Shown piece after piece: positions 9,788 through 28,661 of a DNA stretch of 35,735 nt. Each line of letters begins with the position of its first letter. Within the stretch, counting starts at the first letter, position 1. Below the pieces are notes generated by a model. The model did no database searches, was not told where the DNA came from, and saw nothing but the letters and a program-made list of their open reading frames with translations. Origin of the DNA: Treponema sp. UBA3813 (GTDB lineage: Bacteria > Spirochaetota > Spirochaetia > Treponematales > Treponemataceae); NCBI GenBank assembly GCA_002368605.1, contig DFEB01000054.1, positions 1-35,735 of the forward strand, read 5' to 3'. A program made the position numbers and the translations under genes.

Positions 9788-9886
9788 GAAAAAAAACAGG
9801 CGGAGGTGAGGTTCAGAAACGAACTCGCCTGAGCTTGCTCACTGCGATGTTCGATTTCTGGTTCTCACCGGAAGCCTGTTTTTTTT
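9788..9886 (-). terminator. Structured terminator element E1
   Basis: Multi-stem hairpin. P1 is AAAACAGGC/GCCTGTTTT with U/A runs outside; internal loop GGA/GGAA; P2 is GGTGAG/CTCACC; symmetric GTT/GTT loop; P3 is CAGAAA/TTTCTG; P4 is CGAAC.CGC/GCG.GTTCG; the apical stem is GAGC/GCTC. It lies 15 bp after the AICAR formyltransferase stop (minus strand) and has U runs on both strands, so it can terminate both ways. Shares its plan with elements at 23385-23492 and 28534-28625. Confidence 0.8.
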
Positions 9887-9901
9887 GCTTCAGCTAATTG
9901 A

Positions 9902-11077
9902 TTAGTGATGGAAAAGTCTTATGCCCGTGAAGGCCATGACCATTCCGTACTTGTTGCAGGTTTCGATTACATTGTCGTCACGGACGCTTCCGCCTGGCTG
10001 AGCGATTACAGAAACGCCTGACTTGTGGGCGCGCTCAATGTTGTCGCCGAAGGGGAAGAATGCGTCGCTTCCGAGAGCAACATCAGTGTTCTTTGCGAGC
10101 CATTCCTTTTTTTCTTCGCGGGTGAATACAGACGGCTTTTCTGCAAAGATTGTCTGCCATTTGCCTTCTGCAAGGACATCCTCGTACTCATCGCCGATGT
10201 AGACATCGATGGCGTTGTCACGGTCAGCACGCTTGATTCCGTCAACGAATTTGAGGCCGAGAACTTTCGGTGACTGACGGAGCCACCAGTTGTCTGCCTT
10301 CTGACCTGCCAGTCGGGTACAGTGGATTCGGCTCTGCTGGCCGGCTCCGATACCGATTGCCTGACCGTCCTTTACATAGCAGACTGAATTTGACTGTGTG
10401 TATTTGAGGACAATCTGTGCGATAAGGAGATTGTGCTTTTCGTCTTCGGTCAAAGTCTTTTTCTCTGTGACGATGTTTGAGAGAGTTGACTCGTCAAGCT
10501 TTAAGAAGTTGTGTCCCTGCTCGAATTTAACGCCGAAAACCTGTTTGACTTCTGTTTCTGGCGGAATGTAGTTAGGGTCAATCTGAAGAATGCAGTAGGC
10601 TCCCTTCTTTTTTGCCTTTAAAAGCTCCAAGGCATCATCGTCATAGCCCGGAGCGATGATTCCGTCTGAAACTTCCTTGGCGATGAGCTGGGCTGTGGCC
10701 TTGTCACACTTGTCGCTCAAAGAGATGAAGTCGCCGAAAGAGCTCATTCGGTCTGCACCACGGGCACGGGCATAAGCACAGGCCAGAGGGGTGAGCTGGA
10801 TTGAATCGTCCACGAAGTAGATTTTTTTGAGAGTGTCAGAAAGGGGCTTTCCGATTGCGGCTCCGGCCGGGCTTACATGCTTGAAGCTTGTTGCTGCAGG
10901 AAGGCCTGTTGCTTCTTTGAGCTCCTTTACAAGCTGCCAGCCGTTCAAGGCGTCCAGCAAGTTGATATATCCGGGTTTTCCGTTAACAACAGTGAGCGGC
11001 AAATCGCCCTCGTCCACAAAGACGCGCGCCGGTTTCTGGTTCGGGTTGCATCCGTATTTAAGTTCAAGTTCTTTCAT
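9902..11077 (-). CDS. AICAR formyltransferase, single-domain (no IMP cyclohydrolase)
   Basis: Transfers the formyl group from 10-formyl-THF to AICAR in purine synthesis. In most bacteria this domain is the C-terminal half of PurH; here the 391-residue protein begins directly with MKELELKYGCNPNQKPARV, the start of the AICARFT fold, and no cyclohydrolase (MGS) domain precedes it. The catalytic SFKHVSPAGAA motif (~64-74) holds the Lys-His pair; SFGDFISLSDKCD, QQSRIHCTRLAGQKA, LGSDAFFPFGDNIERA and QPGGSVRDDNVI follow. The length suits the stand-alone form known from some clostridia and treponemes, so it is not a truncation. IMP cyclohydrolase must be encoded elsewhere. No purine riboswitch is visible upstream. 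Confidence 0.9.
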   Translation of the reverse strand: MKELELKYGCNPNQKPARVFVDEGDLPLTVVNGKPGYINLLDALNGWQLVKELKEATGLPAATSFKHVSPAGAAIGKPLSDTLKKIYFVDDSIQLTPLACAYARARGADRMSSFGDFISLSDKCDKATAQLIAKEVSDGIIAPGYDDDALELLKAKKKGAYCILQIDPNYIPPETEVKQVFGVKFEQGHNFLKLDESTLSNIVTEKKTLTEDEKHNLLIAQIVLKYTQSNSVCYVKDGQAIGIGAGQQSRIHCTRLAGQKADNWWLRQSPKVLGLKFVDGIKRADRDNAIDVYIGDEYEDVLAEGKWQTIFAEKPSVFTREEKKEWLAKNTDVALGSDAFFPFGDNIERAHKSGVSVIAQPGGSVRDDNVIETCNKYGMVMAFTGIRLFHH

Positions 11078-11141
11078 ATTCTAAAGGATAGCGGAAAAGC
11101 GCAATGTTTTCAATTCTTCTGATTTCATATACAATCATTTC

Positions 11142-12098
11142 ATGCTAAAAAAATCTTCTCTTGTCGGCCTGATTTTTGCTTCCCTTTCCGTTTTTATGTG
11201 GGGAATCACCTTTGTTTCTACGAAATATCTTCTGCGGTCTTTTTCGGCCTTTGAAATCCTTGTGCTCCGTTTTTTTCTCGCTTATCTGGGCTTGTGGATT
11301 TTGCGACCTAAATCTCTTCATCTTGAAGATAAAAAAAACGAAATCTATTTTGCCCTTGCAGGATTTTCCGGAGTTACGGCTTATCAGTTTATGGAAAATA
11401 TGGCCATATCTTACACCAGCGCGTCAAATGTGAGCATTATCGTCTCAATCTGCCCGATTTTTACTGCGATTTTTTCTCAAATCTTCCTTAAAGAAAAGCA
11501 CCTTACGCCCACATTCCTGCTGGGATTTTTGCTTGCGATTTTCGGAATTGCCCTTGTAAGTTTTAACGGCGTGGTCATCCTTCACTTAAGCCCTAAAGGT
11601 GACTTGCTGGCTCTGGGGGCGGCGGTCTTGTGGGGCGTTTACTCGGTCTGCGTGTCAAAAATCAACGCACTGGGCTTGGACTCTATCCAGACAACGCGGA
11701 GAATATTTTACTGGGCCCTGCTTTTTATGATTCCAATCGGTCTTTTCTCGATTATGACTTTAGGAACATTTCCTGTATCTACTCCAGATTTTAAAATTCC
11801 GGGAATTTCTCTGCTTTTAGACTCAGAATTTAATCACTTTCGTTTTTCAAATCCTCTGAACTGGCTTAACCTTTCTTTTTTGGGCTTGGGAGCCAGTGCC
11901 TTCTGCTTTGCCGCCTGGAACATTGCCTGTGAGCGATTGGGAACCGTCCGCGCCACCGTGGGAATTTACCTCATTCCGGTAGTGACGATAATCTTCGCTT
12001 TTTTTGCCCTGGGGGAGAACATTTCCCTTATGGGGGCGATTGGAGCCGTCATTACGATTGCAGGCCTTTTTGTAAGTGAGATAAAAAAAGATGATTAA
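11142..12098 (+). CDS. DMT/EamA-family transporter
   Basis: A 318-residue integral membrane protein with about ten hydrophobic segments arranged as two EamA repeats. The first spans MLKKSSLVGLIFASLSVFMWG through FLLGFLLAIFGIALVSFNG; the second starts DLLALGAAVLWGVYSVCVSKIN and ends GAIGAVITIAGLFVSEIKK. Family members are drug/metabolite exporters, often for amino acids or nucleosides; substrate unknown. TACAAT (11130-11135) ends 6 nt before the ATG, with TTTTCA 17 nt upstream of it and no Shine-Dalgarno, so it may be leaderless. Its stop overlaps the convergent pseudouridine synthase stop. Confidence 0.85.
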   Translation: MLKKSSLVGLIFASLSVFMWGITFVSTKYLLRSFSAFEILVLRFFLAYLGLWILRPKSLHLEDKKNEIYFALAGFSGVTAYQFMENMAISYTSASNVSIIVSICPIFTAIFSQIFLKEKHLTPTFLLGFLLAIFGIALVSFNGVVILHLSPKGDLLALGAAVLWGVYSVCVSKINALGLDSIQTTRRIFYWALLFMIPIGLFSIMTLGTFPVSTPDFKIPGISLLLDSEFNHFRFSNPLNWLNLSFLGLGASAFCFAAWNIACERLGTVRATVGIYLIPVVTIIFAFFALGENISLMGAIGAVITIAGLFVSEIKKDD

Positions 12099-13654
12099 AA
12101 TTCCGGCGGGCAGTCAATCGTCATTTGCCGGCCTGTGAGTGGGTGAGTGAAAGTGATTTTCTGCGCATGGAGCATAAGCCGTTCTCCCTCGTCGCAGTGA
12201 CCATACAGAGTGTCGCCGATAATTGCCGTTCCGAAGCCGTGACTGTCTGCGCTGGCCAGTCGGAGCTGGTGGGTTCGTCCCGTGTGGGGCATAAAAAGTA
12301 CCCTTGTTGCATTCCGTGTCGAGCCGTCAGGAGCATGGTATCGCTCTACATCGAGAATCTGCCATTGAGTGACCGCGCTTTTTCCATTTTCGGCATCCCA
12401 AATCTGGTGGGGGCGGTTCTCAACATCAAGACGGAAAAACAATTCCATCGAGCCTGTCTGGCTGATACCTTTTTTTGCGAGAACTCCGTCCAGAAGAGCG
12501 ACATATTCTTTTTGAACTTCCTTGGCCTCAAACTGTCTGTTCAGTTCCCTGTGGGCTTCTTTGGTAAAGGCTAAAATCATAATTCCTGAAGTTTCCATGT
12601 CGAGACGATGAACCGCAGGCTGGGCAATTTCAACTGAATCCCCGAAAAGCCGCCTGAAACGAGACTCAACGCAATCTTTTTTGTCTTCACCCCGGCCGGG
12701 AACGCTCAAAATCCCAGATTCTTTGTTGACCACGCAAATCGTCTCGTCACGGTATAAAATTCTTAAGCTAAGCATTGCAGGAAGCAGAATTCCACAACGC
12801 TCATCGCAGGGGGGAGTTAGGAGTGAGGGGTTGGGTGTTGGGCGGTCCGGCTTCGCCGTCACGCTTTCCGCGAGCACATTCGTTGTCGTGCTCGTTTGAC
12901 TTCCGCTATTGCTCCATACCGCAAGCGGTACGCCTTCGGCGGTGCTACAATCGTTACCGCTCGTCTCTGTGTATGCTGTTTCGGCCAGCGAAATTGGGAA
13001 GAGCTCGTGTGAAAAAGCATAGTCGAATAGCTTGGGGGCACAGCAATCGCCTGTTCCGGTTGGGGGAAGTTTACCCTGATTGTAGCGTGCGCAAATTTCT
13101 TTAAGGGAGAGGATTTTTCCGTCGATGCAGTGAAAATTATAAAGCGCGTGGACTTTTTCAAGGGACTCTGTACAAAGTTTTTCCCTCTCAGTCCGAAGTT
13201 TTTTTAATTCAAAGTTCATGTTGCCTGATTCAGAATGAACTGATTCACTGGCAATTTTTTCCGTCAGTTCATGAATTCTTTTGTCATTTTCCGAAAGTGC
13301 CTCTTCAATTTCCTCAGCAGAAACAATCGGAGGAACAAGCTGAAAGTTGAAAGATGAAAGTTGAAAGTTAGAACTTGAAACTTGAGAGTCTCTCTCTTCC
13401 GGGGGAAAATCTTCCCAGACATTCTCTTTTCCGTTTTCAACTTTCAACTTGCGGGCGTTTCCAGAATTCGTTACCAGGTTGACTTCATTGCCATCTTTGT
13501 CCCTACATACCAGGACCCCCAGCATTACCCACTGATTTTTTCTTTCCTGACTTGGGCGTGCAATCTGCTTTAGAGAGAGTTTTCCTTCTTTAATGGCTAG
13601 AATCACTTCTTCGAGAATGATGGCTGCTTTTTCTTGTGGGAGGGGCGGAAACAT
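12095..13654 (-). CDS. RluA-family pseudouridine synthase with N-terminal domain and repeat insertions
   Basis: The C-terminal ~230 residues are an RluA/TruC pseudouridine synthase: NKESGILSVPGRG, QPAVHRLDMETSGIMILAFTKEAHRELNRQF (catalytic Asp in HRLDMETSG), LPHTGRTHQLR-like MPHTGRTHQLRLAS, and IIGDTLYG. The N-terminal ~280 residues are the extra domain seen in some RluA proteins of Bacteroidetes and spirochetes, with a coiled coil (ENDKRIHELTEKIASE..KKLRTEREKLC) and KLPPTGTGDCCAPKLFDYAF. Two stretches are encoded by repeats: ~residues 69-105 (13339-13450) and 57 codons at 12809-12979, placed between SLAE and CDERCGILLP. Both keep the frame. The RNA target is unknown (tRNA or 23S rRNA). The synthase domain itself looks intact. 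Confidence 0.85.
   Translation of the reverse strand: MFPPLPQEKAAIILEEVILAIKEGKLSLKQIARPSQERKNQWVMLGVLVCRDKDGNEVNLVTNSGNARKLKVENGKENVWEDFPPEERDSQVSSSNFQLSSFNFQLVPPIVSAEEIEEALSENDKRIHELTEKIASESVHSESGNMNFELKKLRTEREKLCTESLEKVHALYNFHCIDGKILSLKEICARYNQGKLPPTGTGDCCAPKLFDYAFSHELFPISLAETAYTETSGNDCSTAEGVPLAVWSNSGSQTSTTTNVLAESVTAKPDRPTPNPSLLTPPCDERCGILLPAMLSLRILYRDETICVVNKESGILSVPGRGEDKKDCVESRFRRLFGDSVEIAQPAVHRLDMETSGIMILAFTKEAHRELNRQFEAKEVQKEYVALLDGVLAKKGISQTGSMELFFRLDVENRPHQIWDAENGKSAVTQWQILDVERYHAPDGSTRNATRVLFMPHTGRTHQLRLASADSHGFGTAIIGDTLYGHCDEGERLMLHAQKITFTHPLTGRQMTIDCPPEF
12809..12979 (-). repeat. GC-rich palindromic repeat inserted in frame (57 codons)
   Basis: On the coding strand it contains the perfect hairpin TACCGCTTGCGGTA, the arms CGAGCAC/GTGCTCG, a GGAGCAATAGCGGAAGTCAAAC core and ends in a CCCAACCCCTCACTCCTAACTCCCC tract of degenerate units. 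It is translated into a Thr/Ser/Pro-rich segment unlike the flanking enzyme. The core resembles sequences at 13736-13757, 28403-28422 and (inverted) 31328-31348. Boundaries are inferred from where family-like sequence stops and resumes. Confidence 0.65.
13339..13450. repeat. In-frame GAAAGTTGAAAGTT palindromic array
   Basis: The left arm (13339-13386) has tandem TGAAAGTTGAAAG-type units; the right arm (13433-13450) is TTTTCAACTTTCAACTTG, the inverted unit. On the minus strand it is translated within the N-terminal domain of the pseudouridine synthase (SSNFQLSSFNFQL and RKLKVENGK). Confidence 0.65.
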
Positions 13655-13680
13655 GCTTTAATTTTGCCCGAAACTTGTTT

Positions 13681-13770
13681 TTTTTACAAGCAAAGCCTAC
13701 GCAGGATGCGGCGGGCGTCAGTTGCGGAACGAAGTGGAGCAATGAGCGTGAGCGAACCCAAAGCAGCCTG
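13681..13770. repeat. GC-rich intergenic repeat
   Basis: A G/C-rich stretch within an AT-rich intergenic region, ending in the GGAGCAATGAGCGTGAGCGAAC core (13736-13757) that resembles the segment inserted in the neighbouring gene. No ORF is supported. The remaining part of 13655-14185 holds the small RNA gene described separately. Confidence 0.45.
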
Positions 13771-13830
13771 TAGAAAATAAAATTTCGTACAAAAAAATTA
13801 AAAAAAATCGCAGAATTTTAAAAATTTTCC

Positions 13831-13858
13831 TTGCTTTTGTAGAAAAGTGTGGTATTAT
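13831..13858 (+). promoter_or_regulatory. Promoter of the small RNA gene
   Basis: TTGCTT (13831-13836), 16-nt spacer, TATTAT (13853-13858), in a strongly A/T-rich context; predicted start near G13865. Confidence 0.65.
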
Positions 13859-13879
13859 TAAATTGTAGACAGGAGCGAG

Positions 13880-13960
13880 ATGAGGACGCACACCGGCTGC
13901 ACGATAGGAGGCGTAATGCAATTTCCGACAAAAAGATCTGACTCCTCAGGGGTCTTGTAA
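13880..13960 (+). CDS. Short ORF (26 aa) within the small RNA
   Basis: ATG at 13880 follows AGGAG with a 4-nt gap; an internal in-frame ATG at 13916 follows GGAGG. The peptide begins MRTHTGCTIGG and ends SDSSGVL. Having two Shine-Dalgarno-preceded starts in one frame is unusual. It could be a leader peptide or chance. The stop lies right after the first internal hairpin. Confidence 0.35.
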   Translation: MRTHTGCTIGGVMQFPTKRSDSSGVL

Positions 13961-14036
13961 TTACATTCACTCCACCTGCAGGAATTGCAGGATATCATTA
14001 ATTGCCCTTCGCTAAGGTCGAAGAGAGGCAAACTAT

Positions 14037-14067
14037 AAACCGCCAAAAGCTGGCGGTTTTCTTTTTT
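14037..14067 (+). terminator. Intrinsic terminator of the small RNA
   Basis: Perfect 9-bp stem AAACCGCCA/TGGCGGTTT, 5-nt loop, then TCTTTTTT. Confidence 0.85.
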
Positions 14068-14185
14068 ATAGAGCTTTTATGGGAAAAAAAATCGATAAAC
14101 GGCTTCCTTTGCTAACAATTATGCGTTTTTCTTCCGAAAATAAATCAGGTGGTTTTTTCTATTTGCGAATGGCAAGGGGGATATT

Positions 14186-14494
14186 ATGACAATTACAATC
14201 GATGAATCAAAACTTCTTCATACGGTGAAGAGTATTTCGATTTTGCTCGTTATTGCGGCTGTACTTACATTTTTAGGGCTTTCAAGCAAAATTTTTCATT
14301 TTAGCGAGGAGCAGCCTGTTCTTTATGAAATGAACTACAACCGTCTCTCAACTCCGGGCAAGGGTGTTGCCACTTCCATGAAAAAAACGGGCGAAGTGCA
14401 GTCGAAAGTGCTTGGCCCTCACCGTGGAAACGGAAAGGGTGGATCGAAATTCTTTGACGAAGTCGAAAAAGTCCACGGAAATAAAGCAAAATAA
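14186..14494 (+). CDS. Small single-pass membrane protein, unknown function
   Basis: A 102-residue protein I do not recognise. It has a short N-terminal cytoplasmic segment, one hydrophobic helix at ~17-38 (SISILLVIAAVLTFLGLSS) and a basic, Gly/Lys-rich tail (HRGNGKGGSKFF). The start has a strong AGGGGG ribosome site. Its stop overlaps the start of the GluQ-RS gene (TAATG), so the two are translationally coupled; no functional link is otherwise apparent. Confidence 0.65.
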   Translation: MTITIDESKLLHTVKSISILLVIAAVLTFLGLSSKIFHFSEEQPVLYEMNYNRLSTPGKGVATSMKKTGEVQSKVLGPHRGNGKGGSKFFDEVEKVHGNKAK

Positions 14495-15432
14495 TGCGTG
14501 GCAGATTCGCGCCTTCTCCCAGCGGGCGGATGCATCTCGGAAATGTTTATTCCGCTCTCCTTTCCTATCTTTCGGCAAAAAAGCAGGGCGGTGAGTGGAT
14601 TCTTCGCGTTGAAGACCTTGACCGCCAGCGTTGTAAAAAAGAATATTCCGCGCAGTTGCTTGATGATTTGCTCTGGCTGGGCTTAAAATGGGACAATTTT
14701 TCTCCTGAGAAGGGCGGACTAGCCCCAGAGTTTTTTCAATCTAACCGCGATTCCTTCTATATAAGTGCCTTTAACTCTCTCTGTGAAAAAGGTCTTGTTT
14801 ATGATTGCTTTTGCCGTCGTGCCGATTTGCTTTCTGCTTCGGCTCCCCATGCCAGCGATGGAAGCCCGATTTATTCAGGAAAATGCAAGAGTCTTTCGGA
14901 AAATGAGCGTAACCTTCTATTAAAAACGCGTTCTCCTGCAAAGAGACTCATGGTCGAAGATAAATCAATTTCTTTTATTGACGGGCATTTTGGTGCTCAG
15001 AAATCCAATCTTCCTCGTGATGTGGGGGATTTTATCATTCGCCGTTCTGACGGAAATTTTGCCTACCAGCTTGCAGTGGTTGTGGATGATGCCCTTATGG
15101 GCGTGAGCGAAATTGTCCGGGGCAGGGATTTGCTCTCATCTGTGGGCGCGCAGCTTTATCTTTATGGAAAACTTTCTTTGATTCCGCCTGATTCTTTCCC
15201 CGAATTCTATCATCTGCCACTTTTGCTCTCTTGTGACGGACGGCGGCTTTCAAAGCGAAACAAGGATATTGATATGGGATTTTTGCGAGATAATTTTTCT
15301 GCTGTAGATTTGATTGGAAAAATCCTTTTTTTGAGCGGTTGCATTGAAAAAGAAGAGAAAATTTCCCTTGAAGAGGCCGTAGGCGAATTCGATTGGAAGA
15401 AAGTAAAAAAAGAAGATATTTTTGTAGCTTAA
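14494..15432 (+). CDS. gluQ: Glutamyl-Q tRNA(Asp) synthetase
   Basis: GluQ-RS (YadB) is a truncated GluRS paralogue that attaches glutamate to the queuosine base of tRNA-Asp without needing tRNA for activation. The 312-residue product has RGRFAPSPSGRMHLGN (HIGH-type motif at 14-17), LRVEDLDRQR, a zinc site made of C105, C107 and YSGKC near 131, and a KMSKS-like RRLSKRNKD (~251). It lacks the anticodon-binding half of GluRS, which together with the length separates it from GltX. Its presence implies queuosine-modified tRNA in this organism. Confidence 0.9.
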   Translation: MRGRFAPSPSGRMHLGNVYSALLSYLSAKKQGGEWILRVEDLDRQRCKKEYSAQLLDDLLWLGLKWDNFSPEKGGLAPEFFQSNRDSFYISAFNSLCEKGLVYDCFCRRADLLSASAPHASDGSPIYSGKCKSLSENERNLLLKTRSPAKRLMVEDKSISFIDGHFGAQKSNLPRDVGDFIIRRSDGNFAYQLAVVVDDALMGVSEIVRGRDLLSSVGAQLYLYGKLSLIPPDSFPEFYHLPLLLSCDGRRLSKRNKDIDMGFLRDNFSAVDLIGKILFLSGCIEKEEKISLEEAVGEFDWKKVKKEDIFVA

Positions 15433-15451
15433 AAAGCAGGTTGAACATCTT

Positions 15452-15480
15452 TTGTCATTATCGTATACTGATTGTATATT
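15452..15480 (+). promoter_or_regulatory. argJBD promoter
   Basis: TTGTCA (15452-15457), 17-nt spacer, TATATT (15475-15480); predicted start near 15487. Confidence 0.7.
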
Positions 15481-15488
15481 TATGTAAA

Positions 15489-15502
15489 TTTTATGCATAA
15501 AA
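15489..15502. promoter_or_regulatory. Palindromic operator candidate at the argJ transcription start
   Basis: TTTTATGCATAAAA is a perfect 14-bp palindrome at about +2 to +16. It is nested in a larger imperfect inverted repeat: TGTATATTTATG (15473-15484) against CATAAAAATACA (15496-15507). The position suits a repressor; an ArgR-type regulator is a guess because the A/T pattern only loosely resembles ARG boxes. Confidence 0.5.
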
Positions 15503-15522
15503 ATACATTTCGGGAGCGAATT

Positions 15523-16794
15523 ATGGCATATTCTTTCATTGATGGCGGCGTTACGGCTGCCCAGGGCTTTACGGCCAACGGAATCTTGAACAAAATCAAG
15601 TCTAGCCGCACAACGAACGATACGGCTCTTATTTTTTCAGAAAAGGTCTGCAATGCGGCGGGTGTATTCACTCAGAATCGGGTCAAGGCTGAATGTGTTA
15701 AGTTGACAAAAGACCATATCGCAAACGGCAAGGCTCAGGCTGTCATCGCCAACAGCGGTAACGCAAATGCCTGCACTGGCAAGGAAGGCTACGACAACGC
15801 AAACAAGGAAGCTGTGGCAGTGGCCGCAAAAATGAACATAAACTCTGACGATGTGCTTGTTCTCTCGACAGGCGTAATCGGTCAGCAGCTTCCTGTGGAA
15901 AAAATCCTCAACGGTCTCGACAAGCTGGCTGACGGTCTTTCAAAGGAAGGTCACAAAGAAGCCCGAATTGCAATCATGACCACCGACACCCACTATAAGG
16001 AAGTCGCCCTGGAAACTGTGATTGGCGGCAAAACCGTGCGCATGGGAACAATGGCCAAGGGAAGCGGCATGATTCACATCAATCTGGGAACCATGTTGGG
16101 CTTTATCACCACTGACTGCGCAATTTCTTCACAAATGCTTGAAAAGGCCTTGCGAATCTCTGCGGCAGGCACTTACAACTGCGTTTCAATCGACGGCGAC
16201 ACTTCAACGAACGATTCACTTCTCATTCTCGCCAACGGCATGGCAGGAAACGCAGAAATCACTAGCGAAGGGGCTGATTTTGACGCTTTTGTTGAGGCTT
16301 TGAACGCCCTTAACACTGAAATGGCAAAGAAAATCGCCGCTGACGGAGAAGGTGCGACACGACTTGTTACCTGCAATGTCGTTGGTGCTGACACGGTAGA
16401 AAATGCCCGCGGCTTGGCTAAGGCCGTCATCTGCTCAAATCTCGTAAAGGCTGCCTTCTTCGGAGCGGACGCAAACTGGGGCCGAATCCTTGACGCAATG
16501 GGCTACTCAGGCTTCTTCTTCACTCCCGAAAAAACTTCTGTCTCATTCTTGAGCCGTGAGGGTGCAAAACGCTACTTCGAGGACGGAAATGTGAACGGGG
16601 GCAAAGAGTCTTCAATCAAGGTCTTTGACCACGGAGTTCCGCTGAATTTCGACGAAGACTTGGCAAAGAAAATCCTCACCGAAGAAGCCGTGGACATTCT
16701 CGTGGAGCTTGAAGACGGAAAAGCAAAAGGCACGGCCTGGGGATGTGACCTCACTTACGATTATGTAAAAATCAACGGAGACTACCGTACCTAA
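15523..16794 (+). CDS. argJ: Bifunctional ornithine acetyltransferase/N-acetylglutamate synthase
   Basis: Transfers acetyl from N-acetylornithine to glutamate, recycling acetyl groups in arginine synthesis. The 423-residue product starts MAYSFIDGGVTAAQGF after a GGGAG ribosome site; the in-frame ATG at 15472 lies in the promoter. ArgJ is made as a precursor that cleaves itself at a Thr; here the site is KGSGMIHINLGTMLGF with Thr190 as the expected new N-terminus. Most ArgJ proteins read (A)TML after P-N-M; here it is I-N-L-G-T-M-L. AVIANSGNANACTG, IMTTDTHYKEV and DGDTSTNDS are all typical. First gene of argJ-argB-argD. Confidence 0.93.
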   Translation: MAYSFIDGGVTAAQGFTANGILNKIKSSRTTNDTALIFSEKVCNAAGVFTQNRVKAECVKLTKDHIANGKAQAVIANSGNANACTGKEGYDNANKEAVAVAAKMNINSDDVLVLSTGVIGQQLPVEKILNGLDKLADGLSKEGHKEARIAIMTTDTHYKEVALETVIGGKTVRMGTMAKGSGMIHINLGTMLGFITTDCAISSQMLEKALRISAAGTYNCVSIDGDTSTNDSLLILANGMAGNAEITSEGADFDAFVEALNALNTEMAKKIAADGEGATRLVTCNVVGADTVENARGLAKAVICSNLVKAAFFGADANWGRILDAMGYSGFFFTPEKTSVSFLSREGAKRYFEDGNVNGGKESSIKVFDHGVPLNFDEDLAKKILTEEAVDILVELEDGKAKGTAWGCDLTYDYVKINGDYRT

Positions 16795-16805
16795 TGGAGA
16801 AAATT

Positions 16806-17714: not shown

Positions 17715-17763
17715 AGACACGAATTATACTAACTATCACTAATTAAAATTGTGAGGAAAAAAT

Positions 17764-18933: not shown

Positions 18934-18953
18934 TTTGGAAGAAAAAGTGATTG

Positions 18954-19018
18954 AAAGAGGAAAAGAAACCGTCGCAAGCAAACTTGCTTAGCAAAAAGGT
19001 GTCGTTTCCTCTTTTTTG
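18954..19018 (+). terminator. Intrinsic terminator after argD
   Basis: AAAGAGG/CCTCTTT with a bulge, an inner AAAC/GTTT extension, and an apical AAGCAAACTTGCTT hairpin, followed by six Ts. The multi-stem plan loosely recalls the E1-E3 elements. Confidence 0.7.
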
Positions 19019-19051
19019 TTTTCTTAAATTCTGTTACAATAAATTTCCGTT

Positions 19052-20527: not shown

Positions 20528-20530
20528 TTT

Positions 20531-22186: not shown

Positions 22187-23339
22187 TTAATCCCCAAAGA
22201 GCCGTGAGGGCGAATGTCACTGCCATGTCAAGGATTGTGCAGCCGAGAATGAAATCCACAGTCATAAGCAGGCGATAGAGCACGAATCCCAAAATCCAGA
22301 TGATGATTTTCGCAATGTCCACTTTCTTATCGGAAGAATCTCGCTTAACCACAAAGAAATCCGCAATCAAAATTGCAATCATTGGGGCAAAAACCGAACC
22401 GATGTAGTACAAGAAGTCGGTGATGTTGTCCATGTTGAAGAGAATTGCTCCCGCAGTTCCAAGAAGAGCTACCACAACGGCAGTCCATTTTCCGTCCAGC
22501 TTTTCAAATACTGTTTTGGCAGAAATTCCCGCGCTGAATGCGTCAAGGAAGGTGGTCGTAACCGTTGAAAGGACGATGATGATAAGCCCTGCGATTCCCA
22601 AGCCTGATTTTACAGCAATCTGTGCGATGTCGCTCTCGCCGGTGAAAATCGTCGCTCCCATACCGATAATGTACATCCAGCATGAGACGATTCCGTAAAT
22701 CAAAGAGCTGGCAAGAGTGGCGCGGAAGGGCTTTTCGGCTTCTTTCGTGTAATCAGAGATAAGGGGAAGCCAGGAAAGTGGCATTGCCACCGCCAGTTCC
22801 ACAGCCGCGCCAAAGGACATGGCTTCTTCAATGGCAGAGTCTGCAATCTTTTCGCCGAAGAAGATGATTTTGCACAAAACCAGAGTGAGGATAAAGAGCA
22901 GGCTCATGGTGACCACATTGATTTTTCCAAGGTTTGTGATTCCGATTACAATCCATAGAATAATCAGCGCACCGATGACGATTGCCCAAATCCACTTTCC
23001 GAATGAGAAAATCTCGTTTACGGCAAGGGAGCCGTCATAAATCATGATTCCAGTCCAGCCCACCAGCTGAAGGACATTCAAAAGTGCGAAGAATTTGCTT
23101 CCCCATGAGCCGAAACTGTATTTCGTGGTCTCCATGGCAGATTTTTTTGCAATTCCGCCGATGTATCCGGCAAAAAAGAGCAGGACGCATCCAATCAAAT
23201 GACCCAGCAAAATAGCCGCCGTTCCCCGGACAAATCCCAAAGGAGCGAAAAATGTGCCTGTAATAATCTCAGCGATAGATACCCCGGCGCCGAACCAAAT
23301 CAGCGCGTTAGAAAAGACAGATGTTTTTTTATTTTCCAT
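22155..23339 (-). CDS. cytX: Hydroxymethylpyrimidine permease, NCS1 family
   Basis: A 394-residue membrane protein with about 12 helices, belonging to the nucleobase:cation symporter-1 family (CodB/CytX). N-terminal SNALIWFGAGVSIAEIITGTF and GHLIGCVLLFFAGYIGG match the substrate-binding helices 1 and 2. Its position behind thiD and beside a TPP-riboswitch operon supports import of hydroxymethylpyrimidine for thiamine salvage over cytosine transport. It has an AAGGA ribosome site. Separated from thiD by structured element E3, which may trim read-through. The C-terminus (RRKKQELQ) overlaps the pyrophosphatase gene by 32 bp tail to tail. Confidence 0.87.
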   Translation of the reverse strand: MENKKTSVFSNALIWFGAGVSIAEIITGTFFAPLGFVRGTAAILLGHLIGCVLLFFAGYIGGIAKKSAMETTKYSFGSWGSKFFALLNVLQLVGWTGIMIYDGSLAVNEIFSFGKWIWAIVIGALIILWIVIGITNLGKINVVTMSLLFILTLVLCKIIFFGEKIADSAIEEAMSFGAAVELAVAMPLSWLPLISDYTKEAEKPFRATLASSLIYGIVSCWMYIIGMGATIFTGESDIAQIAVKSGLGIAGLIIIVLSTVTTTFLDAFSAGISAKTVFEKLDGKWTAVVVALLGTAGAILFNMDNITDFLYYIGSVFAPMIAILIADFFVVKRDSSDKKVDIAKIIIWILGFVLYRLLMTVDFILGCTILDMAVTFALTALWGLITRRKKQELQ

Positions 23340-23384
23340 GATAATTTCCTTGTTTTATGTAAGAGTAATAAATAGCAAATGATA

Positions 23385-23492
23385 AAAAGCATGCGGAATC
23401 GGGGTTGCGCTTAGCACTTTGTGCGTTAAACTCGCCTGAGCTTTGCTCACAGCGATGTTTGCTGGCGCGTTCCCGATGGGAGCATGATTTTT
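23385..23492 (-). terminator. Structured terminator element E3
   Basis: Same plan as E1. P1 AAAAAGCATGC/GCATGATTTTT (one mismatch); GGA/GGGA internal loop; P2 ATCGGG/CCCGAT; GTT/GTT loop; P3 GCGC.AGCA/TGCT.GCGC; P4 AAAC.CGC/GCG.GTTT; apical GAGC/GCTC. It abuts the thiD stop and ends in U runs. It has an extra GCACTTTGTGC hairpin in the left arm. Confidence 0.75.
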
Positions 23493-24339
23493 AGTATTTT
23501 CGAGTTAATACGAAGTTGTGCATCAAAGGGCCGCTTCCTTTGCCTAGGTCCAGGCCTGCTTCCAGCGCGCCTGAGATGTATTCCTTGGCTTTTGACACCG
23601 CGTTTTCAAGACTCTCGCCTTTTGCAAGATTTGCGGCGATTGCGCTTGAGAGGGTGCAGCCGGTTCCGTGAGTGTTGGGATTGTTGATTCGCCTTCCCTT
23701 GAACCACTTTGCGATGACCTCGCCATTTTCATTCTTTCCGTAAAGGAAATCGCTGGCGTCATTTACATTGTGGCCGCCTTTAACCAGAACGGAGCAGCCG
23801 AATTTTTCGTGGATTTTCTGAGCCGCCTCTTCCATTTCCTTTTCAGAAGTGATTTTAAGGCCTTTTGAGTCAAGTCCTGAAAGAGAGTTTCCTTCCAGAA
23901 GGACTTCAGTTTCTGGAATATTTGGCGTAATCACTGTGGCCAGCGGGAGAAGTTCTTTTTTTAAGCTTTCGATTGCCTCGTCGCTGATGAGTTTTGCCCC
24001 GCTGGTCGCCACCATAACGGGATCAACGACAATGTTTTTGAGGGAGAACTTTTTGATGGAGCTGGCGATTGTCTGAATCAGTCCCACAGACGCGACCATA
24101 CCTGTCTTTACTGCGTCCGGGAAAATATCCGTGACGACAGCCTCAATTTGTTTTTGTAAAAAATCAGGCGAGACTTCCTGAATACCCGTAACGCCGGTTG
24201 TGTTCTGTGCGGTCAGTGCGGTGACGGCGCTCATTGCGTAAACTCCGTTCATCGTCATCGTCTTGATATCCGCCTGGATTCCGGCGCCTCCGCAAGAATC
24301 ACTTCCTGCGATTGTCAAAGCAGTTTTCATCACAGCCAT
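23491..24339 (-). CDS. thiD: Hydroxymethylpyrimidine (phosphate) kinase
   Basis: Phosphorylates HMP and HMP-P for thiamine synthesis. Ribokinase-like fold in 282 residues: KTALTIAGSDSCGGAGIQADIKTM, MSAVTALTAQNTTGV, VDPVMVATSGAKL, TPNIPETEVLL and the anion-hole/catalytic NTHGTGCTLSSAIAANLAKG. I start at the ATG 24339, which follows AAAGGAGG with an 8-nt gap; longer in-frame starts lie upstream of this ribosome site. Divergent from the thiM operon. Its leader has no visible TPP element, so it may be outside riboswitch control. Confidence 0.93.
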   Translation of the reverse strand: MAVMKTALTIAGSDSCGGAGIQADIKTMTMNGVYAMSAVTALTAQNTTGVTGIQEVSPDFLQKQIEAVVTDIFPDAVKTGMVASVGLIQTIASSIKKFSLKNIVVDPVMVATSGAKLISDEAIESLKKELLPLATVITPNIPETEVLLEGNSLSGLDSKGLKITSEKEMEEAAQKIHEKFGCSVLVKGGHNVNDASDFLYGKNENGEVIAKWFKGRRINNPNTHGTGCTLSSAIAANLAKGESLENAVSKAKEYISGALEAGLDLGKGSGPLMHNFVLTRKY

Positions 24340-24393
24340 TTGTGATGCCTCCTTTTTCCCGTGGTGCCCCCGGTAAATTTTTCTGTGTTTCAA

Positions 24394-24422
24394 AACATAA
24401 TGATTTGCAAAATTTTGTTCAA
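24394..24422 (-). promoter_or_regulatory. thiD-cytX promoter
   Basis: On the minus strand TTGAAC, 17-nt spacer, TATGTT. Its -35 box lies only 12 bp from the -35 box of the divergent thiM promoter. Confidence 0.6.
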
Positions 24423-24434
24423 GAGGGCAGACGA

Positions 24435-24463
24435 TTTACAAAAGTCGATATTTGTTTTATTAT
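24435..24463 (+). promoter_or_regulatory. thiM operon promoter
   Basis: TTTACA (24435-24440), 17-nt spacer, TATTAT (24458-24463). The predicted start coincides with the 5' edge of the riboswitch. Confidence 0.7.
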
Positions 24464-24469
24464 ACAAAC

Positions 24470-24572
24470 ATTGCAGGGGAACTCGACGGAGAAATCCTAA
24501 CGAGTTGAGATAGCGTAAAGACGCAAAACCCTTTGAACCTGTCCGGTTAATACCGACGAAGGAAGCACTGTA
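24470..24572 (+). ncRNA. TPP riboswitch (THI element)
   Basis: Conserved parts are in order: GCAGGGGAA at the 5' side, the pyrimidine-binding GTTGAGAT segment, ACCCTTTGAACCTG, then CCGGTTAATACCG and CGAAGGAAGC closing the aptamer. The P3 arm CTCG...CGAG is extended. It precedes thiM by ~95 nt with a terminator in between, so it is expected to act by attenuation, switching the operon off when TPP is bound. Confidence 0.95.
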
Positions 24573-24591
24573 GAATCCAAAAAATCACAGG

Positions 24592-24618
24592 CTCTCCCCT
24601 CGGAGAGTTTTTCTTTTT
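24592..24618 (+). terminator. Riboswitch expression-platform terminator
   Basis: CTCTCC/GGAGAG stem with loop CCTC, followed by TTTTTCTTTTTT. It lies 20 nt after the aptamer and 48 nt before thiM. Confidence 0.85.
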
Positions 24619-24665
24619 TCAGACGATGCGGTCAACTTCCTGAATCTAAAAATAAGGAGTTAAAA

Positions 24666-25514
24666 ATGACCGAAAACGAAATCAAATCACAAGTAAAAAA
24701 AGCGGTCGAAGCAGTCCGCGCTCAGAAGCCTCTCGCGCCTTCAATCACAAACACCGTTACCATTAATTTTGTGGCAAATGCCCAGATTGCCGTTGGAGGC
24801 TCAGCAGCCATGGTTTATCTTCCTGACGAGGGAGAATTTGTCTCGGAAGTGGGAAGCGCGGTTTACATCAATGCGGGAACAATGTTCCCTGTCTACGAAG
24901 AGACCTTGCCCCGCACGGCAAAACGCCTTTTCGAGCTTAAAAGGAACTGGGTTTTGGATCCTGTTGGAATCGGAATCGGCTCTCTCCGCACAAAATTGCT
25001 CTCAGACTTTAAGGATTTTCCGCCATCAATCGTCCGAGGAAACGCCTCGGAAGTAATCGCCCTTGCAAAACTCTGGGGAATCGATGCAGGAACATCTTCT
25101 TCTGGCCCAAAGGGAGTCGATACCGTTGACAGCGTAGAAATGGCCGAAAACGCCGCAAAAGCCTTGGCTTCTTTCATCAACGAAAAGCGGGGAGGACTTG
25201 GGGGAGCCGTTGCCGTAAGCGGAATCGAGGATTTGGTCACTGACGGAAAAACTGTCGTTTACTGCAAGGGTGGCTCTCACTTCATGGAAAAAATCACCGG
25301 TTCAGGCTGTTCTTTGGGCGGTGTCTGCGCGGTTTATGCAGGAGTGGCTTCTCCTTTCATCGCAGCTCTTTCCGCAACACAAATTTACAATCTGGCAGGA
25401 AAGAGGGCTGAGTCAAAAGTAAATGCCCCGGCCTCTTTCCAAGTCGCCTTCCTTGACGAGCTTTATCTTGCTTCATCTGAGGATGTGGCCAACAATCCCT
25501 TCACTGTAAAATAA
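24666..25514 (+). CDS. thiM: Hydroxyethylthiazole kinase
   Basis: Phosphorylates salvaged thiazole (HET). Ribokinase-like: PLAPSITNTVTINFVANAQIAVGGSAAMVYLPDE (family: P-L-V-hydrophobic-I-T-N..V), WVLDPVGIGIGSLRT, SIVRGNASEVIALA and the catalytic KITGSGCSLGGVCAVYAG, in which the GSGC cysteine loop is conserved. 282 residues, slightly longer than usual at the N-terminus. Starts after AAGGAG. First gene of the TPP-controlled operon; the pathway here is salvage, since no thiC or thiG is present in the window. Confidence 0.93.
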   Translation: MTENEIKSQVKKAVEAVRAQKPLAPSITNTVTINFVANAQIAVGGSAAMVYLPDEGEFVSEVGSAVYINAGTMFPVYEETLPRTAKRLFELKRNWVLDPVGIGIGSLRTKLLSDFKDFPPSIVRGNASEVIALAKLWGIDAGTSSSGPKGVDTVDSVEMAENAAKALASFINEKRGGLGGAVAVSGIEDLVTDGKTVVYCKGGSHFMEKITGSGCSLGGVCAVYAGVASPFIAALSATQIYNLAGKRAESKVNAPASFQVAFLDELYLASSEDVANNPFTVK

Positions 25515-25529
25515 GGAGCCAGAGAAAAA

Positions 25530-25826
25530 ATGAACACATTGATTGCACTTGCCATTGCACCGGTAGGAACAGGCGATGAACTTTCTGCAGAGGTTGCTGA
25601 AGTAGTAAAAGTAATCCGTGAATCAGGATTACCCAACAAAACTTCCTCAATGTTCACCGAAATTGAGGGAGAATACGACAAGGTTATGGAAGTCGTCAAA
25701 AAAGCGACCTTCGTTCTTGCCGAAAAGGGAATCCGCACCGAAGTCGTGCTTAAAATGGATATCCGACCTGGTTACACTGACACCATGAGCGGAAAATTAG
25801 AGAGACTTGAAGAGCATCTCAAATAA
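25530..25826 (+). CDS. Thiamine-binding protein, MTH1187/YkoF-like
   Basis: A 98-residue protein of the DUF77 (MTH1187) family, whose relatives bind thiamine or HMP in a ferredoxin-like fold. It starts LIALAIAPVGTGDELSAEVAEVV and includes SGLPNKTSSMFTEIEGEYDKVMEVV, the typical ligand-pocket segment. The sandwich position between thiM and thiE supports a thiamine-precursor role, perhaps as a cytoplasmic carrier. 15 nt behind thiM with a GGAG ribosome site. Confidence 0.85.
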   Translation: MNTLIALAIAPVGTGDELSAEVAEVVKVIRESGLPNKTSSMFTEIEGEYDKVMEVVKKATFVLAEKGIRTEVVLKMDIRPGYTDTMSGKLERLEEHLK

Positions 25827-25847
25827 AGCAAACAAAAGGAATAAAAA

Positions 25848-26528
25848 ATGAAAGTTGATATAAGCGCATATCTTGTCGTTGGCCGGGAAAACACAAATGG
25901 TCGCCCTGTCGCACAAATCGTTTCCGACGCGGTGAAGGCAGGCTTTACCTGTGTCCAAATACGTTCAAAAACCGCCAGCGCCCTTGAGATGATTGAAGAT
26001 TGCCGGGAATCTGCAAAAGCAATCGCCGAACTTGGAAAATCTGAGAGCGTTGCCCTTCTCGTGGACGACCGCCTTGACATCGTGCTTGCCGCCCGCGAAA
26101 TGGGAATCAAAGTTGACGGCCTTCATGTAGGTCAGAGCGACATTCCGGTTTCAATTTGCCGGAAATTCTTGGGAAAAGACTCGATTATTGGTCTTTCTGC
26201 TCCCACAAAAGATTTGATTGATTATGTTCAGTCTGCTGATGTAAGTCAAATCGATTATTTCGGGGCAGGCCCTGTCCATGAGACGGCCACAAAACCCGAT
26301 TGCGGCATGGACGAAAACGGAAAGGTTATTACAAAGACTTTTGAAGAATTGGCCGAACTTGGAAAGAAAAGCCCCATTCCAGTGGTAGTAGGCGGGGGCG
26401 TAAAGTTAAAAGACATCGCCCCACTTAAAGAAAGTGGCGTCGGCGGATTTTTTGTAGTTTCCGCAGTAGCCGGAGCCGAAAGCCCCTATGCCGCCGCGAA
26501 AGAATTAGCCGACGCCTGGAAGAATTAG
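25848..26528 (+). CDS. thiE: Thiamine phosphate synthase
   Basis: Joins HMP-PP and thiazole phosphate. TIM barrel of 226 residues: VQIRSKTASALEMIE, LLVDDRLDIVLAAREMGIKVDGLHVGQSD, IGLSAPTKDLI, DYFGAGPVHETATKPDC and PVVVGGGVKLKDI, all active-site loops of ThiE. Last gene of the riboswitch operon. The stop overlaps the convergent sugar-binding protein gene by 4 bp, with no terminator between them. Confidence 0.93.
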   Translation: MKVDISAYLVVGRENTNGRPVAQIVSDAVKAGFTCVQIRSKTASALEMIEDCRESAKAIAELGKSESVALLVDDRLDIVLAAREMGIKVDGLHVGQSDIPVSICRKFLGKDSIIGLSAPTKDLIDYVQSADVSQIDYFGAGPVHETATKPDCGMDENGKVITKTFEELAELGKKSPIPVVVGGGVKLKDIAPLKESGVGGFFVVSAVAGAESPYAAAKELADAWKN

Positions 26529-27538
26529 TATTGTCTTGTTGGCAAAATTGCCGCCGCATTTGACTGATCGAAAACAGCCTCATTGACATACTGAATTTTT
26601 TCGACTGAGCCGCCGTTTTCGAGAGTATTGATAATTTCAGCAACGCGTGGACCATGGAGAGGGTTGCACTCGCAAGCACAGTTGATTTCGCCTGCAATCA
26701 TGCTGAGAAATACATCATGACCGGCATCAAATGTGATGATTATGATGTCTTCGCCTGGTTTTTTACCAGCAGCCTTGATTGCTTCAATTGCGCCCAAAGC
26801 CATATCATCATTTTCTGCAAAAAGAACATTGATTTTGTTGATTCCGACTTCTTTGATAATCTCTTCCATTGCCTTTTTGCCACCGTCTTTGCGGAAGTCA
26901 CCTGATTTCTGTGCGATAAGGTTCCAGTTTGGATGTGATTGAATTCCTTCTTCGATACCCTGAGTTCGGCCTACCTGAGCAGAAGCACCCAGTGTTCCCT
27001 GAATGTCAACAATGTTAAGGTCTTCATTTGAAAGTCCTTTTCCGTCAAGGTAGCCTTCGAGCCATTTTACGCCATCGCGACCTTCTTTAAGAAAGTTTCC
27101 GCCGACCCAGCAGAGATAAAGGCTGTCATCTTCAAGCTTCATCTGGCGGTCAGAAAGAATTACTGGAATTGCGGCTGCTTTAGCTTCTTTAAGAACTTCA
27201 TCCCAGCCAGTTTCGATAACCGGGGCAACGACGATATAATCAACATTCTGTGCGATAAAGTCGCGGATTGCGGCAATCTGAACTTCCTGATTTCCGTCTG
27301 CATCGATATAAATGAGGTCATAGCCGTTTGCAGGTGTCATAGTTGTTTTAAATGAGGATGAATTAGCGGTTCTCCATACAGATTCATGACCGACCTGAGC
27401 ATAACCGACTTTAATTGTACGATTTGAAGTCTGGCGTGAAACTACTTCGCCTGATTTTGTTTCAGCTTTTTTGTTACAACCAGTGAATAAAAGAAGGGCA
27501 AGGGCGATAATGCTTGCCGTTACTAATAATTTTTTCAT
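26525..27538 (-). CDS. Sugar-binding lipoprotein of an ABC transporter (YtfQ-like)
   Basis: Periplasmic-binding-protein type 1 fold, 337 residues. The signal peptide MKKLLVTASIIALALLLFTGC has a clear lipobox (FTGC, Cys21). The mature part begins IKVGYAQVGHESVWRTANSSS, very similar to the galactofuranose-binding YtfQ group (IGFSQVG.ES.WR.A), followed by DADGNQEVQIAAIRDFIAQNVDYIVVAP, PVILSDR and NVLFAENDDMALGAIEAIKAAG. It probably captures a pentose or hexose furanose. No permease or ATPase gene adjoins it; it lies 10 nt behind pflA on the same strand, an unexpected partner. Confidence 0.87.
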   Translation of the reverse strand: MKKLLVTASIIALALLLFTGCNKKAETKSGEVVSRQTSNRTIKVGYAQVGHESVWRTANSSSFKTTMTPANGYDLIYIDADGNQEVQIAAIRDFIAQNVDYIVVAPVIETGWDEVLKEAKAAAIPVILSDRQMKLEDDSLYLCWVGGNFLKEGRDGVKWLEGYLDGKGLSNEDLNIVDIQGTLGASAQVGRTQGIEEGIQSHPNWNLIAQKSGDFRKDGGKKAMEEIIKEVGINKINVLFAENDDMALGAIEAIKAAGKKPGEDIIIITFDAGHDVFLSMIAGEINCACECNPLHGPRVAEIINTLENGGSVEKIQYVNEAVFDQSNAAAILPTRQY

Positions 27539-27548
27539 TAAAATCTCC

Positions 27549-28301
27549 TTATTCTTTCCATTTTATATATTTTTCGCATTCAAGTATAGACCGCGCATTT
27601 TCCACACGCTCCATCGTAGGACTTTCAGTTTTTTCGAGGGGGTAAGGAATCCCCAAATCCTTGTACTTAGTGATTGCAAGCCCGTGATATGGCAGGATTT
27701 CCACCCGTTCCACATTGTGCAGAGTGCGGATAAAATCGCGGGTCTGGGTGAGATATTCGTCATTGTCGGTGATTCCCGGAACCAAAACATGTCGGATCCA
27801 GATTGGCTTTTTGATTTCGTCAAGGTAGGCGAACATTTCCCGCACATTTTTACCGCTACAGCCTGTGAGTTTTTTGTGTTCGTCCTCATTTATGTGCTTT
27901 ATGTCCACGAGGAGAATGTCAGTTACTTCCATTAACTTTTTGAATTTCTCAAACCATTCGCCTTCTTTTTTGAAAGGCCCGCCCGCAGTATCGATACAAG
28001 TATTGATGTTGCGCTCTTTTGCCTTTGTGAAAAGCTCTGTCAGAAAATCAATCTGAGCCAGTGGCTCTCCGCCAGAGACCGTGATTCCGCCTTTTTTGCC
28101 CCAGAAATCCCGGCAGCTCTCAGCCTCGTTCAAAAGTTCATCGGCTGTGTAGAGTTTTCCGCGAGTCATTTCCCAGGTGTCAGGATTGTGGCAGTAAAGG
28201 CAGCGGAAAGGACAGCCCGAAAAGAAAATGATGAAGCGGCTTCCAGGCCCGTCAGCACAGCCGAAAGATTCTAACTGATGAATATATCCTTGTAATGCCA
28301 T
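27549..28301 (-). CDS. pflA: Pyruvate formate-lyase activating enzyme
   Basis: Radical SAM enzyme that installs the glycyl radical on PflB. The [4Fe-4S] motif is C30-x3-C34-x2-C37 (SGCPFRCLYCHN); the SAM-binding GGEPLAQ segment follows, and DIKHINEDEHKKLTG and HVLVPGITDND are typical of PflA. 250 residues, so it lacks the extra ferredoxin domain of other glycyl radical activators. RBS AGAGG. It is 361 nt behind pflB, the gap being filled with repeat sequence and element E2, so a separate level of expression is likely. Confidence 0.93.
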   Translation of the reverse strand: MALQGYIHQLESFGCADGPGSRFIIFFSGCPFRCLYCHNPDTWEMTRGKLYTADELLNEAESCRDFWGKKGGITVSGGEPLAQIDFLTELFTKAKERNINTCIDTAGGPFKKEGEWFEKFKKLMEVTDILLVDIKHINEDEHKKLTGCSGKNVREMFAYLDEIKKPIWIRHVLVPGITDNDEYLTQTRDFIRTLHNVERVEILPYHGLAITKYKDLGIPYPLEKTESPTMERVENARSILECEKYIKWKE

Positions 28302-28309
28302 TTAGTACC

Positions 28310-28480
28310 TCTGTTTGCAATCGCGCAAGGGATTGTAGTGGCGGCGAAGCCGTTCGGTAGCAATGGGATTGTCGGGTCTGGCTCGACAATGACAGTGCGG
28401 ACGAATGAAGCGACAGCGTAACCACGCAAAGCCCGCCCCTGCCTTTGGCAGGGGGGCGCCCACCTTTTTATGAAAACCGA
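28310..28480. repeat. GC-rich repeat cluster between pflB and pflA
   Basis: Contains the perfect hairpins ATTGTCG/CGACAAT (28370-28389 region) and CCCCTGCC-TTT-GGCAGGGG (28436-28454), and a GAATGAAGCGACAGCGTAAC core (28403-28422) that resembles the repeats at 12894-12915, 13736-13757 and 31328-31348. No ORF is supported. With element E2 it accounts for the whole pflB-pflA gap. Confidence 0.55.
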
Positions 28481-28533
28481 GCAGGATTCATTGTAACAAA
28501 TCACGCTGATTTTATAAAAAAGACGGAAAATGC

Positions 28534-28625
28534 AAAAAGGGGCGGAAGTGAGGTTCCGACAAAAAGTCGCTTGAACTTGTTCACCGCGACTTTTATGGCG
28601 GGTTCTCACTGGGAGCCCCTTTTTG
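28534..28625 (-). terminator. Structured terminator element E2
   Basis: P1 AAAAAGGGGC/GCCCCTTTTT; GGA/GGGA loop; P2 AGTGAG/CTCACT; GTT/GTT loop; P3 CCG/CGG; P4 AAAAGTCGC/GCGACTTTT (9 bp perfect); apical GAAC/GTTC. Compared with E1, P1, P2, P4 and the apical stem all differ by compensated pairs. It lies 36 bp after the pflB stop. Confidence 0.82.
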
Positions 28626-28661
28626 TTTTATCTAGTGTTTGTTTATGACACCAGTTGTTTA

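Follow-up and report, generated by a model that had tools for sequence, protein, structure and literature searches.

The window analysed here, a stretch of 35,735 nucleotides (positions 1 to 35,735 of the forward strand of contig DFEB01000054.1, assembly GCA_002368605.1) from Treponema sp. UBA3813, carries three copies, E1 to E3, of a repeated hairpin element at the 3′ ends of genes. The source genome (G000) comprises 2.6 Mb in 83 contigs and is 88.5% complete; in what follows, G-numbers denote the genomes compared, L-numbers the loci fetched from them, and genes were called only crudely, from open frames. E1 is situated at 9788..9886 on the plus strand (the model strand), its P1 arms (9789-9801 and 9874-9886) enclosing a core that runs from the GKA to the GNRA side of an internal loop (9802-9873). 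E2 (23381..23494, plus strand; core 23395-23481) contains an additional hairpin within P3, and E3 occupies 28530..28627 on the same strand (core 28544-28614). The minus-strand genes for an AICARFT/IMPCHase-like protein (9902..11077), phosphomethylpyrimidine kinase (23491..24393) and pyruvate formate-lyase (28662..31001) point their 3′ ends towards E1, E2 and E3, respectively, and each element precedes another minus-strand gene, as a preliminary description of the window had noted. The fold given there is likewise present in all three, with P1, the GGA/GG(G)A loop, P2, the GTT/GTT stretch and the TGARC..GYTCA tip, and P2 occurs in three differing, compensated sequences. The fold z-scores on the plus strand are -7.7 (E1), -3.9 (E2) and -8.0 (E3), with no equally stable sequence among 200 shuffles of each. 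A minus-strand open frame of 112 codons overlaps E3. In Rfam, E1 to E3 have no match at the gathering score, and E1 with its flanks has none up to E=5.

Further copies exist in the same genome. A BLAST search with E1 (E up to 10) returns 34 matches, of which roughly half are short, while a covariance model (R1) derived from 16 copies of this genome, with 150 candidates scored, yields 26 rows, two of which are the opposite strand of listed copies, hence 24 distinct places, with elements of 97-131 nt. Paired cells make up 96.7% of the 16-copy alignment, 82.0% of its shuffled versions and no more than 48.4% of the slid controls, and both-sided changes are seen in 24 of the 38 pairs, where shuffling gives a mean of 11.4. 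The preliminary description had argued for compensated stems from three copies and had proposed a search for more; the repeated family and its covarying stems are both found, and neither a lack of further copies nor uncompensated stems, two of its refuting conditions, came about. Within the basal part of 32 copies of various tip types, each of the 22 pairs changed on both sides (187 cells, shuffled mean 51.6), although these copies (32 of 42 picked from 154 scan copies) are among the better-stemmed ones, the structures derive from such copies themselves, and the shuffles ignore relatedness. The 154 copies come from a descriptor scan of the fetched loci, the counts of which are biased because the loop pattern was fixed as G[GT]A with GN[AG]A and mostly Watson-Crick stems were demanded.

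G-U pairs fill only 22 of 1800 cells in P1 and P2, and A-C pairs 10 of 1800. Because a G-U pair on one strand is an A-C pair on the other, this scarcity, like the faster change of P1 than of the core, fits either selection in both directions or copying from arm to arm. Such copying, by quasi-palindrome template switching in replication, would keep the stems paired without any selection on the folded strand. Besides the few G-U intermediates among changing pairs, it is favoured by the loci L014 and L256, which share 71 of 72 core positions and the same P1 mismatch and differ in three consecutive compensated P1 pairs; however, it explains neither the covariation of the internal loop described below nor the fact that this loop stays unpaired, and we regard it as an unlikely cause of the pattern. 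In a separate case, L260 (G103), the 5′ P1 arm resembles that of G067, the 3′ arm equals that of G000 at the same site and P1 is partly mispaired; L260 is likely a recombinant through the core.

From the outside inwards, the element consists of an A-tract, a P1 stem of free sequence, an internal loop with G[G/T]A on the 5′ side and GNRA on the 3′ side, a P2 stem that is also of free sequence, usually GGTT/GGTT wobble pairs, and a family-specific tip. By motif, the 154 copies fall into family A (90), family B (13), family C (35) and others (16). The shared part is the base, namely the A-tract, P1, the GKA/GNRA loop, P2 and the T-tract. P3, P4 and the tip are of unrelated sequence in the other families, and a loop of 3-6 nt stands in their place in the shortest copies, which, at about 48 nt (G192), are simple terminator hairpins with the internal loop kept. 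The earlier suggestion of an extra job for the elaborate core is therefore not supported as it stands, since P3, P4 and the tip are replaced in other copies and only the GKA/GNRA loop, P1 and P2 are common. A T-tract (T at six or more of the eight positions after inner P1) is present in 123 of 154 copies, an A-tract in 95 and both in 94. A fixed outer fringe, GC ahead of the A-tract and GT behind the T-tract, occurs in 37 of 150 copies. P1 is inverted yet variable, with 57 different inner 6-mers in 108 copies, and thus lacks the fixed terminal inverted repeats of miniature inverted-repeat transposable elements (MITEs). The GGTT/GGTT stretch forms its G-U pairs on the model strand only. Other hairpins nested within the tips were observed at the E1 site in G023 and the E3 site in G095.

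The internal loop itself covaries. Among 150 distinct copies, it takes the forms GGA/GGGA (96), GTA/GAGA (22), GGA/GGAA (13), GTA/GGGA (7) and others (12), the 5′ side being GGA in 115 and GTA in 35. The middle positions of the two sides combine as GG in 109 copies, TA in 24, TG in 10, GT in 4, GA in 2 and TT in 1 (Fisher p ~2e-17 for the G/T by G/A table, relatedness ignored). Both matched forms are found at one site between species, as at E3 (GGA/GGGA in G000, GTA/GAGA in G102) and in the pairs L042/L075 and L008/L232. This G:G/T:A covariation argues for a selected folded strand and is compatible with RNA or single-stranded DNA; only the loop covariation requires selection on the folded strand. 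Because the loop is kept across families with unrelated tips and covaries in a non-canonical manner, sequence comparison suggests that it is probably a structural recognition module. Furthermore, the stems change jointly and the loop is nearly constant, so something beyond simple stopping of transcription probably reads it, and a covarying loop predicts a dedicated reader. The GUA opposite GA of the loop resembles the core of the bulged-G (loop E or sarcin-ricin) RNA motif, with the difference that one strand is longer (GNRA). The kink-turn was considered and rejected, its consensus having an asymmetry of 3 nt, against 1 nt here.

Beyond the source genome, R1 finds copies in 12 of 39 genomes in a relatives search (own genome included; elements of 88-156 nt), every positive lying within the genus, and in none of 15 genomes outside it. 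The wider search of treponemes proposed in the preliminary description is also positive, with copies in 81 of 200 genus genomes (R1, E up to 0.001). R2, a model of the basal part, matches 15 of 291 genomes (3 of 82 genera) across the order, all within one family, and 12 of 392 genomes (4 of 166 genera) across the phylum, where the sole match outside that family is 30 nt in G591. A 40-nt R2 match in G015, similar to that in G591, proves to be a perfect hairpin of the plain kind, which shows that R2 lacks specificity when scores are weak. These large scans used tighter filters and scored few candidates per genome (20 in the genus and order scans, 14 in the phylum scan), and with their settings the own genome yields 20 places for R1 and 11 (order) or 8 (phylum) for R2, against 24 in the full R1 search; absences and copy numbers from them are accordingly weak. 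An exact 33-nt core pattern occurs in 29 stretches of genome contigs, in records titled Treponema sp., Treponema ruminis, uncultured Treponema and uncultured Spirochaetaceae, and copies are present in the complete genome of Treponema ruminis RU1 (CP031518). The exact tip pattern has no match in viral contigs. The family has many scattered copies in gut and rumen Treponema.

With respect to genes, the copies mostly lie at 3′ ends. In the own genome, 21 of 24 copies have callable genes on both sides (12 convergent, 9 tandem, none divergent), the other three lying at contig ends. In a background count, the element spacers (12 convergent, 8 tandem, 0 divergent) differ from element-free spacers of at least 60 bp (5, 17 and 12, respectively), being enriched in convergent (Fisher p=0.0009) and depleted in divergent arrangements (p=0.002); this count left out 43 shorter spacers, of which 35 are tandem, 7 convergent and 1 divergent. 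Across genomes, 107 copies with callable neighbours comprise 54 tandem placements (28 in one direction, 26 in the other), 39 convergent and 14 divergent ones. The median gap is 21 nt after minus-strand genes ending towards the model 3′ side (n=67) and 54 nt after plus-strand genes (n=65). Together with the T-tracts, this position agrees with the terminator role proposed for E1 to E3.

The orientation of the element differs between families. With E for the element on its model strand and the signs for the flanking genes, family A shows -E- 24, +E+ 11, +E- 32 and -E+ 3 times, and family C shows +E+ 11, +E- 3 and -E+ 7 times, so that genes run into family A oftener from the strand opposite the model and into family C oftener from the model strand. 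These counts bear on the possibility that the element is a functional RNA 3′ module, in which the transcribed loop would bind a protein that either makes the 3′ end more stable or determines read-through, P1 would share in termination, and movement would be secondary. The non-canonical loop covariation, the strong stem covariation and the restriction of the GGTT/GGTT G-U pairs to the model strand favour such a module, which would also be compatible with a terminator family; but the element strand is not fixed relative to the genes, and G-U pairs are scarce in P1 and P2, though the scan favoured Watson-Crick pairs. We hold this explanation to be possible, on the less probable side.

Comparison of orthologous gene ends in other species reveals that the occupant of a site changes. 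Judged by eye, a plain hairpin with a T-run is found in G001, G020, G175 and G053 (E1 site), in G108 and G183 (E3 site), in G023 (L041 site), in G023, G175 and G203 (L046 site) and in G000 (L239 site). The E2 site carries other palindromic repeats in G023, G103, G095 and G175, as do further sites. Forty-five cross-species pairs, not independent as many involve the E3 site, have an element in both members (44 collinear, one flipped), often with another stem or family. L004, L005 and L007 have identical 73-nt cores within different P1 stems. At the L002 locus in G067, the entire 98-bp unit, tracts included, is missing and the flanks are joined, which, at the level of sequence, shows gain or loss of a complete unit; in G203 the unit is missing too, with a less clean junction. 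G023 and G203 retain half-deleted relics at L011.

Two alternatives start from this dispersal. The core might insert into the loops of existing plain terminators, P1 being host sequence, as identical cores within different P1 stems and the plain terminators at some orthologous ends would allow. However, the clean empty site at L002 also lacks P1 and both tracts, and a plain terminator with a matching stem was not seen at the loci examined; insertion of this kind is improbable. Alternatively, the element could be a mobile single-stranded-DNA hairpin similar to repetitive extragenic palindromes (REPs) or MITEs, mobilised in trans, its terminator appearance being a tolerated side effect at gene ends. 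Uneven copy number, the empty site, the identical dispersed cores and the differing families at one site are in its favour. Against it, the end sequences are not fixed, and the Y1 transposase PF01797 was found neither in the own genome, at 88.5% completeness, nor in any of the 12 R1-positive genomes of the relatives search, all drafts in which other transposase types were not searched. PF01797 is present in 61 of 196 genomes, among them 19 of the 81 element-bearing ones, and these proportions, from two genome draws that may differ, give no sign of a positive association. This alternative is likewise on the less probable side. The preliminary description had preferred an RNA shape to a mobile DNA palindrome. 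The loop covariation does point to a selected folded strand, be it RNA or single-stranded DNA; the choice itself is a false one in view of the dispersed copies, the identical cores elsewhere, the empty site, the few G-U pairs and the mixed orientation.

We consider it fairly likely that E1 to E3 are members of a superfamily of dispersed intrinsic-terminator hairpins specific to this lineage; many of the hairpins would be bidirectional, and the loop is probably a recognition module. From its anatomy and position, P1 with an A-tract ahead and a T-tract behind would stop transcription one or both ways. The comparative evidence suggests that the unit is gained and lost at gene 3′ ends, where it can occupy the place that a plain terminator takes in other species, and the GKA/GNRA loop between P1 and P2 would act as the recognition module on the folded strand. 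We infer movement of the units; the reader of the loop is somewhat more likely a unit-dispersing factor on the folded strand than an mRNA-acting one. A more specific version, a structure-read mobile terminator system in which a putative factor reads the loop and spreads or copies the cassettes to gene 3′ ends, with symmetrical rewriting of P1 and P2 preserving the fold of each copy but not its sequence, is rather speculative.

Several observations weigh against the terminator superfamily. Some orthologous sites are element-free without an obvious terminator (L002 in G067 and G203; L044, L006 and L008 in G053; L011 and L231 in G103; L233 in G175; E2 in G102), and at the L013 site in G103 the flanks abut with neither element nor terminator. 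Of the 107 copies, 14 are placed between divergent genes, 7 of them family C. The faster change of P1 relative to the core is not explained by insertion of a fixed unit. Mixed loops (GTA with GG) amount to 10 of 150 copies, e.g. L213, L216, L251, L254 and L260, and the loop statistic, besides ignoring kinship, draws on copies from a scan with the preset, Watson-Crick-favouring pattern. No target-site duplication is visible at L002 in G067, the single clean empty site, and the missing PF01797 counts here as well.

The closest known kind of element is the pneumococcal SPRITE, compared by description only. SPRITE resembles the Treponema family in its roughly 30 dispersed copies in one genome, its AAAA...TTTT ends, its hairpin with a T-rich tract, its excess in convergent spacers and close to the 3′ ends of genes, and its possible co-option as a terminator. 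It differs as a single AT-rich family with an 18-bp duplex, for which no comparable empty site was found, whereas the Treponema family has several tip families, a common covarying loop, covarying stems and one empty site. Palindromic structured-RNA candidates (PMC8040213), with intrinsic terminators predicted by the authors in 230 of 250, are likewise palindromic and predicted to bear terminators; in the portion of that paper available, however, the palindromic examples are mostly or wholly from Bacteroidetes, and its two named Treponema candidates are ribosomal-protein gene leaders. The A/T-flanked bidirectional stem-loops near convergent genes of low-GC Firmicutes (PMC1590033) share the A-run and T-run around a stem-loop, but form no sequence family, and pallidum is among those without such AT-rich structures. 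GTAG-tagged REPs and their REP-associated tyrosine transposases (RAYTs) (PMC3733652, PMC2817692) are also dispersed palindromes mainly downstream of genes, and some of the Treponema GTA variants resemble the GTAG-like foot. Their tag, however, stands at the foot of a hairpin of 20-40 nt, while the Treponema loop is mostly GGA and belongs to a longer hairpin, in which P1 lies further out. Membership in the REP/REPIN class was rejected on the tag (GGA in 115 of 150), the length (97-131 nt in the own genome) and the Y1 transposase, and mobilisation by RAYTs is not supported as far as tested, with no PF01797 in the genomes named above. No description of a Treponema terminator repeat of this kind was found in literature titles and abstracts, supplements being beyond the reach of that search. 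Terminators are usually seen as private to each gene; here, one structural cassette appears fitted to many gene ends of gut spirochaetes, and its paired stem rewriting offers a natural test of whether palindromes are maintained by selection or by arm-to-arm copying.

Some further repeats and features were observed. G175 has many copies of a second hairpin family, A/T-flanked and longer (5′ GCGA, 3′ GGGA or GAGA; L227, L270-L279 and L352), which occupies the L009 site there, a gene end held by the E1-E3 family in the own genome. The upstream flank of L042 contains another high-copy repeat, about 50 nt long, of which each of the six relatives searched has many copies. By eye, G000 and G067 show no difference along some 190 nt of the E2 spacer (window 23330-23520, compared with L176), within a long match of 79% identity; recombination across spacers is a possible cause. 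Near the gene for phosphomethylpyrimidine kinase, whose 3′ end faces E2, a thiamine pyrophosphate (TPP) riboswitch (64 bits; 24465-24581, plus strand) is located ahead of plus-strand open frames. Meanwhile, a 7-bp tandem repeat of 7.6 copies is situated at 13337-13389 of the window.

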